A stretch of 28,074 nt of DNA from IMG/VR virus record IMGVR_UViG_3300030105_000998, positions 1 through 28,074 of that record; one strand, given 5' to 3'. This document shows, piece after piece, positions 2,047 through 28,074 of this stretch. A program made the position numbers and the translations under genes. Numbering within the stretch: position 1 is the first letter of the stretch; every line of letters starts with the position of its first letter. This DNA comes from a virus. Below the pieces are notes generated by a model that saw nothing but the letters and a program-made list of their open reading frames with translations, did not search any database and was not told where the DNA came from.

Positions 2047-2254
2047 ACCATTTTGCCAATTCTGTTATTGCTTTGAGATTTCCAATTTCTTTTTTTTTCC
2101 ATTTTTTTACTATTTGATTAAACATTCCAAAGGCACGTTGTAAATTTCTTTTTTCAACTGTTAATTTATCAATTTCTTTTATTCTACTATTTAATCGATT
2201 AAGCGTTTTATTATATTCTTTTTTGTTTAATATAATTTTATTAAATATTATCAT
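2030..2254 (-). CDS. Hypothetical coiled-coil protein (74 aa)
   Basis: This is a Lys/Asn/Ile-rich helical protein with heptad-like spacing through residues 15-60 (NRLNSRIKEIDKLTVEKRNL). No domain is recognised. Its ATG overlaps the end of the exonuclease gene by 4 nt and its end overlaps the DUF3310 gene, so it is co-translated with both. Function unknown. Confidence 0.65.
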   Translation of the reverse strand: MIIFNKIILNKKEYNKTLNRLNSRIKEIDKLTVEKRNLQRAFGMFNQIVKKWKKKEIGNLKAITELAKWFEKNK

Positions 2255-3189
2255 TTTGATACGCTTCTCAAGGTTGTTTTTACATAATTTGAGTTTTTAT
2301 TGTGTCTTATGTATGGAGTTTTGCAACCCTGACATCTATATACAGGAAATTTATTTGCTCCGGTAAAATAATTGGCATCTGTTTCGTCAAGATATTCACA
2401 ACCGCAGCTTGGGCAGACATCCATATCCATCAATACGCCTAAATTTGGATGATTTTTAATATAAGGTCTTAATTTTAAATAAACTTGTTCTAATCCCATA
2501 ACATCATGCCGATTATATTCTTCCATTTCGTCAAGTCTTGCCTGATTTCCGCCAATACAATCAACCCATAATTTAAATTCTGTTGATAGTTTTTGTTCTA
2601 ATTTAAAATGCTTTGTCAAATAATCTTGCTTGTTTGATACAAAAGCAAATTCCTTGCGGGCTATTTTAAGCGTGTCAATGCTTTTATATGGTGTAGGTGG
2701 TTGCATATCATTATCAATAAAACGTGCGTTTAATTTGCGTAAATCAAACCTGTCCCCATTGTGCGCAATTACAATATCAGCTTGATCAAATAATTTCCAG
2801 ATTGATTTTAATACACGTTTATCGTTTCTTGTTTTTGCTTCTTTTGGTGTCACTATGTCTGATTTTACTTCTTCAGCATAAAGCCATTTAGCCGCCCAAG
2901 ATAAAACAAACCAAGATTTTTCATTGCCGTTTTTATCTTTAATTATATTATTATGAGAAATGAATTGTTTATATAATCCCCAAACATAAACTTCCATTGG
3001 TGAAGTTTCAATGTCAAATAATAATATTTTTGGCAAATCTGTTTTTGGCGATTCTACTTTGTTTTGAAATTGTTTACTGCATTTGTGGCATTCCCATCTT
3101 TGCATATTTCCATTATAGGAAACAGAAAATACAATACCTTTTTTTCTAACGTGTCCCGATCCGCATTTAGGGCATATTGCTCGCATCAT
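2251..3189 (-). CDS. DnaQ/PolB-exonuclease-like 3'-5' exonuclease flanked by two zinc ribbons (312 aa)
   Basis: The central domain carries the three motifs of DEDD exonucleases: ExoI LLFDIETSP (D59, E61), ExoII AHNGDRFDLRKLNARF (143-157) and ExoIII YNRHD (225-229, D229). The YxxxD form and the 'FDIETSP' opening match the PolB-exonuclease-related group (RNase_H_2). An N-terminal ribbon (C6, C9, C34, C37) and a C-terminal ribbon (C259, C262, C286, C289) flank it, probably for DNA binding. The enzyme would remove 3' nucleotides in a metal-dependent reaction. No polymerase is encoded nearby, so it probably works in recombination or end processing alongside the NinG-like gene upstream. The start is a double ATG at 3189, overlapping the previous gene by 23 nt. 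Confidence 0.85.
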   Translation of the reverse strand: MMRAICPKCGSGHVRKKGIVFSVSYNGNMQRWECHKCSKQFQNKVESPKTDLPKILLFDIETSPMEVYVWGLYKQFISHNNIIKDKNGNEKSWFVLSWAAKWLYAEEVKSDIVTPKEAKTRNDKRVLKSIWKLFDQADIVIAHNGDRFDLRKLNARFIDNDMQPPTPYKSIDTLKIARKEFAFVSNKQDYLTKHFKLEQKLSTEFKLWVDCIGGNQARLDEMEEYNRHDVMGLEQVYLKLRPYIKNHPNLGVLMDMDVCPSCGCEYLDETDANYFTGANKFPVYRCQGCKTPYIRHNKNSNYVKTTLRSVSK

Positions 3190-5406: not shown

Positions 5407-5988
5407 TTATCCCTTTGCATCCTTTAATTTAAGCCTAAAATTATTTTCAAGAGTTGCAAGAAGTTGATATTTTGGTGATTTTGCTTTTGTTAATATCCAA
5501 TGTAATAAGCTTTCATCGATTTCAGACCATTTTTTGTGCGAATTATCTTTTGTTATTTGTATTGGATTTTCCCTATGCGTTTTCCATTCTTTTCGCAATG
5601 CTTGTTCATCGTCAATATTTGATCGCTTAAAATCGTCGGCTTCTTCTTCTGAATAAACGCCTAAATGATAAACGCTAATCAATTTAAGCGTTGCACGATC
5701 TTTCCAACGCTTTTCAGCCATAGCAAAAAAGTATGGATTTTTACAGTTATACGATGAAGCTTCCCCGGTTGTCCATACATCTTTTTTTCCAAGAGTTGCA
5801 CGCCCTAACATGGCAACGCTGCTATTTTCATTTGCAACCATTATTTTTGGTTCGTGAAAAATAATATTTTCTTCTTCTGCGATTCTTGAGCAAGAATTAT
5901 GCGTTAAAATCCAATTCTTATGCAATTGCCAGAAATCATCCTTTTCAAGCCAATCGTATTTTTCTTTTAAATGTTTATTTATATCCAT
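5407..5988 (-). CDS. Putative ssDNA-annealing/recombination protein (193 aa)
   Basis: The core reads WILTHNSCSRIAEEENI, then a strand-rich stretch with VAMLGRATLGKKDVWTTGEAS, then NCKNPYFFAMAEKRWKDRAT and LKLISVYHLGVYSEEEADDF. A 'GEAS....N....AMAEKR..DRA.LKL' block, in which a strand-rich substrate fold precedes an 'A.KR..RA' helix, is reminiscent of Rad52/Sak/Erf-type single-strand annealing proteins and of conserved phage proteins next to recombination genes. The annealing role is inference; I cannot confirm the fold. Co-location with a NinG-like nuclease and a 3'-5' exonuclease supports a recombination function. ATG at 5988 overlaps the preceding stop by one base. Confidence 0.5.
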   Translation of the reverse strand: MDINKHLKEKYDWLEKDDFWQLHKNWILTHNSCSRIAEEENIIFHEPKIMVANENSSVAMLGRATLGKKDVWTTGEASSYNCKNPYFFAMAEKRWKDRATLKLISVYHLGVYSEEEADDFKRSNIDDEQALRKEWKTHRENPIQITKDNSHKKWSEIDESLLHWILTKAKSPKYQLLATLENNFRLKLKDAKG

Positions 5989-6254
5989 TAGTTTTCCTTG
6001 TTTAATCTTCGCATTTTAAGCGTTTCTTTTATTAAGTCGGTTATGTTATCGACTTTTAAAAATTCTTCGTTTATATAGGGTAAATAGCAACGATGTGCGT
6101 GATTTACTAACCAATGGTCACCCCTTTTATATATATTATTAATTAATTCTTTTATATTCATTGCATCAATATTTTTATAAATAGGATTGCCATTATTATC
6201 TGCAATTTCAATAATTGCTCTATAATTGTAAATTTGTTTTTGTTCAATTTGCAT
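5988..6254 (-). CDS. Hypothetical protein, first gene after the palindromic element (88 aa)
   Basis: The protein contains IYNYRAIIEIADNNGNPIY, then a helical region with HWLVNHAHRCYLPYI and a basic C-terminus. No family is recognised. I chose the ATG at 6254. An upstream TTG at 6284 would add ten residues but would run into the inverted-repeat element. It ends with a one-base overlap with the next gene, so it leads the recombination/replication operon. Confidence 0.65.
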   Translation of the reverse strand: MQIEQKQIYNYRAIIEIADNNGNPIYKNIDAMNIKELINNIYKRGDHWLVNHAHRCYLPYINEEFLKVDNITDLIKETLKMRRLNKEN

Positions 6255-6268
6255 AAAAACTGGAAAGA

Positions 6269-6446
6269 TTAACCGACTTGCCAAAAGAAAAATTTTGGAA
6301 AGGCGAGGTATTTACCTCAAGCCGGTTAAGTATTATTATTATTTTTTGAAATATTACCGGCACGAAATCGCTGCTTAAATCGATCGCAAACAGATGTTCG
6401 CTGTATGTATGTGCCGGTAAATAATTTAATATAATCGATTTAAGCA
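6269..6446. promoter_or_regulatory. Palindrome-dense intergenic element with interleaved inverted repeats
   Basis: Several inverted repeats crowd this gap. TTAACCGACTTG (6269-6280) pairs with CAAGCCGGTTAA (6318-6329), 11 of 12. It encloses two hairpins: CCAAAA/TTTTGG (6281-6298) and GAGGT/ACCTC (6305-6318). TTACCGGCAC (6354-6363) pairs perfectly with 6411-6420. TGCTTAAATCGAT (6372-6384) pairs perfectly, over 13 bp, with 6434-6446. The last two are interleaved, the order of an H-type pseudoknot. GCAAACA/TGTTCGC (6386-6401) is a further imperfect dyad. It lies between an XRE regulator gene and the recombination/replication operon. A weak promoter-like pair (TTGAGG at 6320-6315, CAAAAT 17 nt on) overlaps it. 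It may be an operator array, a replication origin or a structured leader RNA. Confidence 0.6.
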
Positions 6447-6455
6447 TACCAAATA

Positions 6456-6629
6456 TTAATATTTTATATGTTTATTAGCAAACACTTTTTTAATTAGCAG
6501 CAAAACGGCTTTTGAAGGATTGCGCAAACCTTGCTCCCAAGATTCAACAGTACGTCCAGATACACCAAGTTTATCGCCAAACTTGACAGTATTTAAGCCA
6601 AGCTTATGTCTAATCTTTTGTATGTTCAT
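6456..6629 (-). CDS. XRE/Cro-type helix-turn-helix regulator (57 aa)
   Basis: ATG at 6629 overlaps the TAA of the upstream gene (TAATG); TAA at 6456-6458. The sequence begins MNIQKIRHKLGLNTVKFG, then DKLGVSGRTVESWEQGLRNP, then SKAVLLLIKKVF. 'FG..LGVS.RTVE.WE.G.R.PS' is the classic XRE HTH with recognition helix followed by the W-E-x-G turn. The protein is almost only the DNA-binding domain, like Cro or antitoxin-type regulators. Its gene ends 10 bp before the outer arm of the palindromic element, which is the natural candidate for its binding sites. No partner toxin is seen: the upstream 116-aa gene has no toxin signature that I recognise. Confidence 0.9.
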   Translation of the reverse strand: MNIQKIRHKLGLNTVKFGDKLGVSGRTVESWEQGLRNPSKAVLLLIKKVFANKHIKY

Positions 6630-7628: not shown

Positions 7629-7670
7629 ATAATAAAATAAAAAACCCCCTTACTCAAAGAATAAGAGGGT
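7629..7670 (-). terminator. Rho-independent terminator of the late operon
   Basis: Read on the minus strand, ACCCTCTTA (7670-7662) pairs over nine positions, including one G-U, with TAAGGGGGT (7652-7644). The loop is nine bases and the stem is followed directly by TTTTTTATTTTATT. It lies 25 nt after the last late gene and is the best intrinsic terminator seen in the window. Confidence 0.85.
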
Positions 7671-7694: not shown

Positions 7695-8009
7695 TTAGCT
7701 TTTGCCGTTTAATCTTCCGCGAATAAACTGTAAATTATCGCTTAAATCATCAATTTCTTTTATTAACGATTCGTGCTTTCGATCTCTTTCGTTTCGATTT
7801 TCCGTATCTGATCGATCCCAACGTGTAAGCATTTTTAAAATTATTGATTCAGTATTATTTGATTTTGTTTCAATTTTTGCAATTGCTTGCCTAATTTGAT
7901 CTAAATCTTCGTTTTGTAATTTTTGGCTTTTAATTAAATTTGTTATCATTAAAACAAACAATGCAACAATTACGCCAATTGCTCCATATTCCCCATATAC
8001 TTCAATCAT
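7695..8009 (-). CDS. Membrane-anchored coiled-coil protein, possible inner-membrane spanin or holin accessory (104 aa)
   Basis: One N-terminal membrane segment (YGAIGVIVALFVLMITNLI, about residues 8-26) is followed by a long charged helical domain with coiled-coil spacing (NEDLDQIRQAIAKIETK to DDLSDNLQFIRGRL). An N-terminal anchor plus an alpha-helical ectodomain is the architecture of Rz-type inner-membrane spanins. The overlapping upstream gene encodes a lipoprotein, as expected for an Rz/Rz1 pair, but the order is reversed and the lysozyme lies far away at 16907. It could equally be a structural membrane protein. It is the last gene before the late terminator. Confidence 0.55.
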   Translation of the reverse strand: MIEVYGEYGAIGVIVALFVLMITNLIKSQKLQNEDLDQIRQAIAKIETKSNNTESIILKMLTRWDRSDTENRNERDRKHESLIKEIDDLSDNLQFIRGRLNGKS

Positions 8010-27349: not shown

Positions 27350-28074
27350 TTGCTGCCTCGAATCTTTCTGCCTTGTTTCCTGTATAATCTTCCCAACGCT
27401 TAATAATTACATCGCAGTAATGTGGATCAATCTCCATTCCATAACACTTGCGATTAGTCTTTTCACAAGCGATTAGCGTTGAGCCAGAGCCTAAAAATAA
27501 ATCAACGACATTATTACCATTATATTTATCAAAAAACCACAACACTAAATCTATTGGCTTTTGAGTGGGATGGTGTCTTTTTTTGTCAAACTCTTTTTCT
27601 GTACCAAAAATTCCCGCCCATTTTATTCTTGCAATATCTCTTTTATGCTTTGATTTACTCCAACATAACTCAAAACAACTGCCATACATTTTATCAGCAC
27701 TATCATCTAATCTTTTATCCCACACAATCCAAGAATTTCCTTTAGGTAAATATTCAGCGTAATAATCTCCACCCCACCAAAATTGTTCTTTGCAATAATC
27801 AAAATAATTTAAAACAAGTGTTGGATTAAATTGTTTGTCATCCCCTATTATTGGATTATGATAATCTCCACCCGTTTTACCTTTAAACATTTTTGACTTC
27901 ATAGAGCTATAATCAGTATCAAGATTCATACCATAAGGAGGATCAGTAAACACCATATCAGCCTTCTGCCCATCCATCAATCGTTCTACATCTTCCTTCT
28001 TTGTCGCATCCCCACATAATAAACGATGCTCTCCTAATATCCATAAATCGCCTTGCTGCGTAATAGCTTCTTCT
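27342..28074 (-). CDS. ParB-domain/DNA methyltransferase, C-terminal part (cut by the right edge)
   Basis: The catalytic half: VFTDPPYGMN, with DPPY at 27944-27933, near the start of the domain, and the AdoMet-binding FLGSGST close to the end (VDLFLGSGSTLIACEKTN). DPPY before FxGxG is the beta-class order. These enzymes methylate N6 of adenine or N4 of cytosine. HHPTQKPI is also typical of the family. The piece begins in the middle of codons EEAITQQGD and lacks the ParB domain found at 1-542. The two pieces share the 108-bp overlap and form one 388-aa protein when the ends are joined. No restriction partner is visible, so it is an orphan methylase, probably for self-protection. Confidence 0.9.
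   Translation of the reverse strand, partial: EEAITQQGDLWILGEHRLLCGDATKKEDVERLMDGQKADMVFTDPPYGMNLDTDYSSMKSKMFKGKTGGDYHNPIIGDDKQFNPTLVLNYFDYCKEQFWWGGDYYAEYLPKGNSWIVWDKRLDDSADKMYGSCFELCWSKSKHKRDIARIKWAGIFGTEKEFDKKRHHPTQKPIDLVLWFFDKYNGNNVVDLFLGSGSTLIACEKTNRKCYGMEIDPHYCDVIIKRWEDYTGNKAERFEAANA
27967..28074. repeat. Right copy of imperfect 108-bp terminal repeat
   Basis: It aligns to 1-108 without gaps, with six mismatches. All of them are silent third-position changes in the methyltransferase frame. Collapsing the two copies gives a circle of 27,966 bp. Confidence 0.9.

Follow-up and report, generated by a model that had tools for sequence, protein, structure and literature searches.

What does the palindrome-rich gap at positions 6255-6455 encode in the virus record studied here (28,074 bases, called the window), in which nearly all genes lie on the minus strand? 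The gap separates an XRE/HTH_3 gene from the gene of an 88-aa protein (Table 1). A first-pass annotation had proposed three roles for it, namely an operator array of the XRE regulator, a replication origin or a structured non-coding RNA. The flanks it named, the XRE regulator and an operon, are as claimed; we add that the element follows the XRE gene and precedes the early operon, with the RNA on the minus strand. As for the record itself, its ends (1-107 and 27969-28074) repeat over about 105 bases, with a 47-base exact core and the same 35-aa stretch in both end ORFs. Hence, it is probably a whole, end-redundant genome.

Table 1 Features at and around the gap in the window (RNA sequences are given as transcribed)
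Feature	Position	Strand	Remarks
88-aa protein gene	5988-6254	(-)	First gene behind both leader RNAs in the window phage
Three-way junction (TWJ) leader RNA	6267-6330	(-)	P1 6318-6329/6269-6280; P2 hairpin ~6306-6317; P3 hairpin 6281-6298
Pseudoknot (PK) leader RNA	6354-6447	(-)	Stems B and A form an H-type pseudoknot, hairpin C lying between them; ~94 bases; RNA 5' end at or near 6447; alignment and covariance model R1
Stem A, 3' arm	6354-6363	(-)	GUGCCGGUAA; repeat check and alignment
Stem B, 3' arm	6372-6384	(-)	AUCGAUUUAAGCA; repeat check and alignment
Hairpin C	6386-6401	(-)	GCGAAC-AUCU-GUUUGC; double changes in 5/6 pairs
Stem A, 5' arm	6411-6420	(-)	UUACCGGCAC; G-C to C-G and A-U to G-C changes; replaced yet paired in L186
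Stem B, 5' arm	6434-6446	(-)	UGCUUAAAUCGAU; 3 doubly changed pairs; replaced yet paired in L120, L186
Predicted promoter	6453-6481	(-)	-35 TTGCTA 6476-6481, spacer 17, -10 TAATAT 6453-6458; 5 nt before AUG at 6447; within XRE gene end
57-aa XRE/HTH_3 protein gene	6456-6629	(-)	Pfam E 6e-6; upstream of leader
Intrinsic terminator	7644-7670	(-)	Closes preceding operon, after holin-like gene 7695-8009

All of the five or more inverted repeats that had been described were found at their coordinates. The two perfect pairs, matched 10/10 (stem A) and 13/13 (stem B), are interleaved in the order A-B-A'-B' as reported, and the imperfect dyad seen inside them is hairpin C. Beside them lies a pair matched 11/12 (P1 in Table 1), in which the odd pair is G.U on the minus strand and which encloses small hairpins, giving the described shape like a three-way junction. 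For comparison, the window was shuffled 60 times with dinucleotides preserved. Apart from the 13-bp pair, the window has no perfect inverted repeat of at least 13 bp with a loop of up to 70 (shuffle mean 0.08), and the interleaved pairs combine 23 bp, which beats all shuffles (20 bp or less in any of them). The repeats are real and rarer than chance, yet alone they are just moderately improbable, so that the homologues have to decide.

Close relatives of the window phage were collected with its exonuclease gene (2251-3189), and blastn with the gap located the element in L002, L086, and L087 (L-numbers are labels of the loci or records compared in the analysis). A stem-pattern search of viral contigs gave nine true matches and one chance match, and L195 and L196 came from a second stem pattern. 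As the outer bases of stem B were fixed in the first pattern and complementary B arms were required in the second, B is not independent evidence for those copies. More loci were fetched via the holin-like and 88-aa proteins and then with a sequence profile. These protein and profile searches, in which no pairing was required, added diverged copies including L120, L138, L144, L189, and L186. Altogether, homologues are present in 21 virus records, with about 16 distinct sequences and one copy per record. The covariance model R1 recovered a single true copy from each of 21 whole records out of 27, the weak opposite-strand echoes marking the same place, and detected no leader in 85 other loci that had been retrieved via the holin-like or exonuclease gene. 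Two further viral scans seeded on the 3' linker and stem A gave no homologue beyond the known ones. Matches in two GTDB genomes, L199 (Balneola) and L200 (Micrarchaeota), consist of the stem pattern with the rest of the element missing and were judged to be chance. Among INPHARED phages, the leader DNA was unmatched and the protein relatives of the window phage are distant only; therefore, no host or annotation can be transferred from them.

The conserved form consists of stem B with about 12 bp, stem A with about 9 bp, and hairpin C between them. For these three helices, 94.2% of cells are paired in 13 distinct sequences (alignment A8), compared with 29-42% after a shift of one side by 1-3 columns. 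Both sides have changed in 10 of the 29 pairs (three in B, two in A, five in C; 13 sequences). The covariation check on related phages, as the first-pass annotation had suggested, thus found that both interleaved stems have changed in a compensatory way. The covariation score is 0.333 versus 0.154 ± 0.017 for shuffles, and none of 500 shuffles reaches it; as these shuffles ignore kinship, the slid control and the wholesale stem replacements weigh more. In L120, stem B reads GGUUAAUACGA/UCGUAUUAACC where GCUUAAAUCGA/UCGAUUUAAGC stood and is still paired. In L186, which was excluded from the pair counts and in which MAFFT misplaced two bases, stem B is new, stem A is new as well (ACGAGGGCA/UGCCCUCGU), and pairing is kept. 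The arm sequences therefore do vary, which had been named beforehand as a point against the element, but the variation is paired, and the RNA reading stands. Independently, A and C are also predicted by RNAalifold, again with double changes. On the minus strand, the three helices contain 23 G.U cells versus 1 A.C. This places the RNA on the minus strand, as a DNA cruciform or a palindromic protein site gives no reason for a one-strand bias. Taken across the related uncultured phages, the kept pairing indicates that the gap is a real structured RNA of the minus strand.

Explanations at the DNA level, be it an operator array of the XRE protein, a replication origin or a conserved boundary of gene exchange, have to account for the same data. 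The palindromes do adjoin the XRE gene and the replication operon, and exchange occurs exactly at module borders. DNA does not explain why arms vary with pairing kept and why G.U is tolerated on one strand only, and the pseudoknot occurs without an adjoining XRE gene in L002, L086, and L087. We consider a DNA element highly improbable for these reasons. The absent XRE gene, together with arms that are replaced with pairing kept, speaks against the operator array; for the origin, location is its sole support. A boundary role could exist alongside the RNA role. As its place beside the leader is not conserved, the XRE gene is not counted as part of the system: in L086 and L087, the leader comes right after the terminator that ends the preceding operon, while in the window four genes, with XRE as the last, lie between this terminator and the leader. 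In the related phage L089, which has no pseudoknot, the corresponding region (1455-2039) carries the gene of a 194-aa CI-like repressor on the opposite strand.

The position of the RNA relative to its putative promoter is strict. Every homologue has a sigma70-like -10 box that ends 5-6 nt ahead of an invariant AUG, and stem B begins with the bases of this AUG in all of them. Across the relatives, the promoter score peaks exactly at the AUG/stem B spacing, above all 1000 shuffles. L102 and L106 share the same leader and L195 and L196 have near-identical leaders; within each pair, the upstream sequence differs and a promoter-like site is found at the same place. We infer that transcription starts at, or at most two bases from, the invariant AUG. 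Stem B starts at this predicted transcription start in all relatives, and a coupling so strict favors a function at the 5' end. As the RNA starts at a predicted promoter and runs into a ribosome binding site, the term 5' mRNA leader suits it better than free non-coding RNA. Of the third role proposed initially, the structured RNA is thus retained (compensatory changes in both stems, wobble bias on the minus strand), and the term non-coding RNA is replaced.

An invariant AUG at the predicted start site (16/16 aligned sequences) could also mean that the leader is itself read: ribosomes would initiate without a leader at the 5' AUG, read across the pseudoknot, and link up with the following gene through an in-frame fusion or a stop at its start codon, with the fold setting the rate. 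The frame is open in 13/13 sequences tested, but draws from the observed columns are expected to leave it open in 79% of cases. In the window, a 67-codon frame spans the two RNAs and stops shortly after the start codon of the 88-aa gene, whose ATG has no clear Shine-Dalgarno sequence ahead of it, and one continuous frame in L189 takes in gene 1, the TWJ, and gene 2. A gene spacing of 116 or 118 in five phages shows that the frame is not kept, and protein-level selection is not seen (pN/pS 0.84 versus 1.04 and 0.73 in the other frames). With these values, and with differences that are not biased to silent ones, a conserved peptide across the gap was ruled out; the 67-codon frame, raised earlier as a possible conserved protein, shows no conservation at the protein level. 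We regard a translated leader as improbable.

The reading that we favor, although we would give it somewhat less than an even chance, is that the leader acts as a 5'-end clamp, protecting the early mRNA while the ribosome site stays free. RppH and RNase E depend on single-stranded 5' ends, and 5' structure stabilizes mRNA (PMC3997798); a clamp of this kind would presuppose that the host has decay of the same type. With transcription starting at the AUG, stem B would clamp the extreme 5' end and hide it from 5'-end-dependent decay of the RppH and RNase E type. Stem A would stop about 24 nt short of the start codon and so leave the Shine-Dalgarno sequence open. The early mRNA would then be stable and evenly translated with any accessory gene in first position. 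In all 14 leaders tested, the end of stem A lies 23-25 nt ahead of the start codon, and the predicted openness of the Shine-Dalgarno sequence is moderate (0.52-0.86, from a calculation without the pseudoknot). A clamp would need no more than a simple hairpin; that the pseudoknot is conserved, that linker bases are constant, and that CGAUU is duplicated suggest something beyond it.

The genes behind the leader differ from phage to phage. The first gene starts at +116 to +118 from the AUG in 14 of 18 phages, usually at 117 nt, and in the window and L144 a second structure sits between the pseudoknot and the gene. In these 18 phages, the first genes belong to 13 families without similarity to each other; ten were tested and gave no meaningful Pfam family, and an anti-host role would be a guess. 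The rest of the operon is shared, with a gene of the kind at 5407-5988 in 17/18 phages. The module is constant while the upstream sequence and the first gene vary, which makes it an exchangeable 5' leader of the early operon. Judged by these comparisons, the leader is a discrete module, with the predicted transcription start and the start codon as its borders. Because the first gene varies, we favor an effect in cis on the message as a whole rather than on a single gene. In L087 (5501-5516, the same in L097), TGTTTCACGTGAAACA, a perfect 16-bp palindrome, is situated between the pseudoknot and the first gene; it is identical to the classical ParB parS consensus.

Action in cis from the start of an early transcript is also known from the put RNA of phage HK022, which suppresses terminators and pauses via the zinc-binding domain of the RNA polymerase β' subunit (PMC9378689). 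The leader could likewise be a protein-free antiterminator: the nascent RNA would fold, bind RNA polymerase, and resist pauses and terminators along the operon. Both are folded, cis-acting RNAs for which the first gene is irrelevant. The location is right, at the early transcript start with one element per genome; putL lies just downstream of its own early promoter and put RNA acts alone (PMC9378689), and here a predicted promoter is found just upstream of the leader at fixed spacing. Because nearly all window genes run in one direction, one very long transcript is possible. The architecture differs, as put RNA consists of two stem-loops of about 70 nt, while the leader is a pseudoknot of about 94 nt with another plan. 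Moreover, put can act at some distance from where transcription starts (about 270 nt for putR; PMC9378689), whereas the coupling here is strict. Antitermination has been shown for put, while the leader is known by its sequence, and no strong sense-strand intrinsic terminator was seen in about 7-9 kb downstream in L086 and L189 or in the early operon of the window. We therefore consider a put-like function unlikely.

Besides the pseudoknot, the 11/12 pair with its small hairpins is a second conserved RNA, the TWJ. Its fold has a z-score of -4.74. It is present in 13/25 records, in single copy and always downstream of the pseudoknot, either directly behind it (window, L144) or between genes (elsewhere). 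P1 is paired in 95% of cells in 12 sequences, compared with 20-52% when slid, and shows double changes in 5/10 pairs. The P2 loop (UUCCUC/AUCCUC) is complementary over 6-7 bases to the following Shine-Dalgarno sequence (GAGGAA/GAGGAU) in most relatives; the match fails in L144, and the window shows no Shine-Dalgarno sequence. For us this putative anti-Shine-Dalgarno loop is a lead, as one event may account for the GAGGAA/GAGGAU change. In terms of the clamp, the TWJ would be a second leader module behind the pseudoknot, with a P2 loop that could pair with the Shine-Dalgarno sequence in most relatives and not in the window.

Several further observations concern the TWJ. In L102/L106 and in L144/L137, genes of one family follow the pseudoknot, with or without the TWJ, in one phage and the TWJ alone in the other; the two leaders look interchangeable. 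The continuous frame of L189 (4832-5467) covers gene 1, the TWJ, and gene 2 as 211 uninterrupted codons, and the structured RNA may be translated there. The arm-to-arm lengths of the 12 aligned copies are multiples of 3, a hint of translation that was rejected with the diverged L198 copy of 53 nt. Upstream of the TWJ, for instance at about 5140-5160 in L189, a AAAGAGGAATAACAAAAT stretch is nearly the same as the AAAGAGGAATAATAAAATG ribosome site that follows the TWJ; this looks like an insertion of the TWJ at a start codon, with the ribosome site duplicated.

The P2 loop of the TWJ would suit a regulated translational or transcriptional switch, in which the pseudoknot binds a phage protein, as in the gene 32 operator of T4, or a small molecule, and the operon is turned up or down. 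Pseudoknots are common in riboswitches and occur in the T4 gp32 operator (PMC535899), and manA and wcaG are candidate riboswitch-like 5' UTR RNAs of marine phages (PMC2864571). A conserved competing helix is predicted as well: RNAalifold pairs GRUCG with the second CGAUU in the 3' linker, which competes with the inner part of stem B for the same bases, so that the repeated CGAUU would let the GRUCG strand pair within stem B or with the linker. This helix, however, has hardly any double change of its own. The anti-Shine-Dalgarno stretch is absent from the pseudoknot itself, Rfam gave no match, and a first gene without conservation speaks against gene-specific feedback. We judge such a switch to be quite unlikely. 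Combining the elements, one may propose a new class of exchangeable phage 5' mRNA modules, in which a start-site pseudoknot and then a TWJ with an anti-Shine-Dalgarno loop would together protect and time the expression of any accessory gene behind them and switch via the duplicated CGAUU; this broader proposal we hold to be doubtful.

Does the leader belong to a known RNA family? As the first-pass annotation had noted, no known riboswitch, terminator or tRNA fits, the gap being without a tRNA or an Rfam family. Rfam 15 gave no family at the curated score in the window, and in five homologue loci nothing relevant was found even at E ≤ 1 (one snoRNA match was due to chance). There is no hammerhead core by eye and no Rfam match to indicate a ribozyme. 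The T4 gene 32 operator (PMC535899) is likewise a phage mRNA pseudoknot upstream of a Shine-Dalgarno sequence with a less structured stretch between. It has about 28 nt and serves one gene in gp32 autoregulation, whereas the leader has about 94 nt and an extra hairpin, and lies at the transcript start ahead of 13 unrelated gene families (18 phages). The 5'-terminal stem-loops of the E. coli ompA/papA type (PMC3997798) have a paired 5' end just after the promoter and a free ribosome site, as is predicted for the leader; they are simple, mRNA-stabilizing structures of host genes, while the leader is a conserved pseudoknot known from sequence. The manA and wcaG motifs (PMC2864571) are also structured 5' UTR RNAs of uncultured marine phages, with unproven function, but are separate families, as there is no Rfam match at the gathering score or at E ≤ 1. 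The epsC motif or EAR element (PMC2864571), again a leader RNA with a predicted pseudoknot ahead of genes, belongs to bacterial chromosomal exopolysaccharide operons, has another architecture, and found no Rfam match here. The leader thus belongs with the structured 5' UTR RNAs, a kind known from marine phages (manA, wcaG; PMC2864571), in which no named family fits. The structure family is well supported and absent from Rfam, although a prior description may exist outside the open-licence literature.

Few phage mRNA leaders with a conserved pseudoknot or an intricate fold are known, and the known ones, put and the gp32 operator, each revealed a mechanism. The leader described here is a new kind of phage mRNA leader, which probably protects or controls the message. 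It sits where the phage sets the level of its first genes, and it flags candidate early accessory genes. Since promoter, RNA, and gene are exchanged separately, it is a natural plug-in part that can be tested with reporters.
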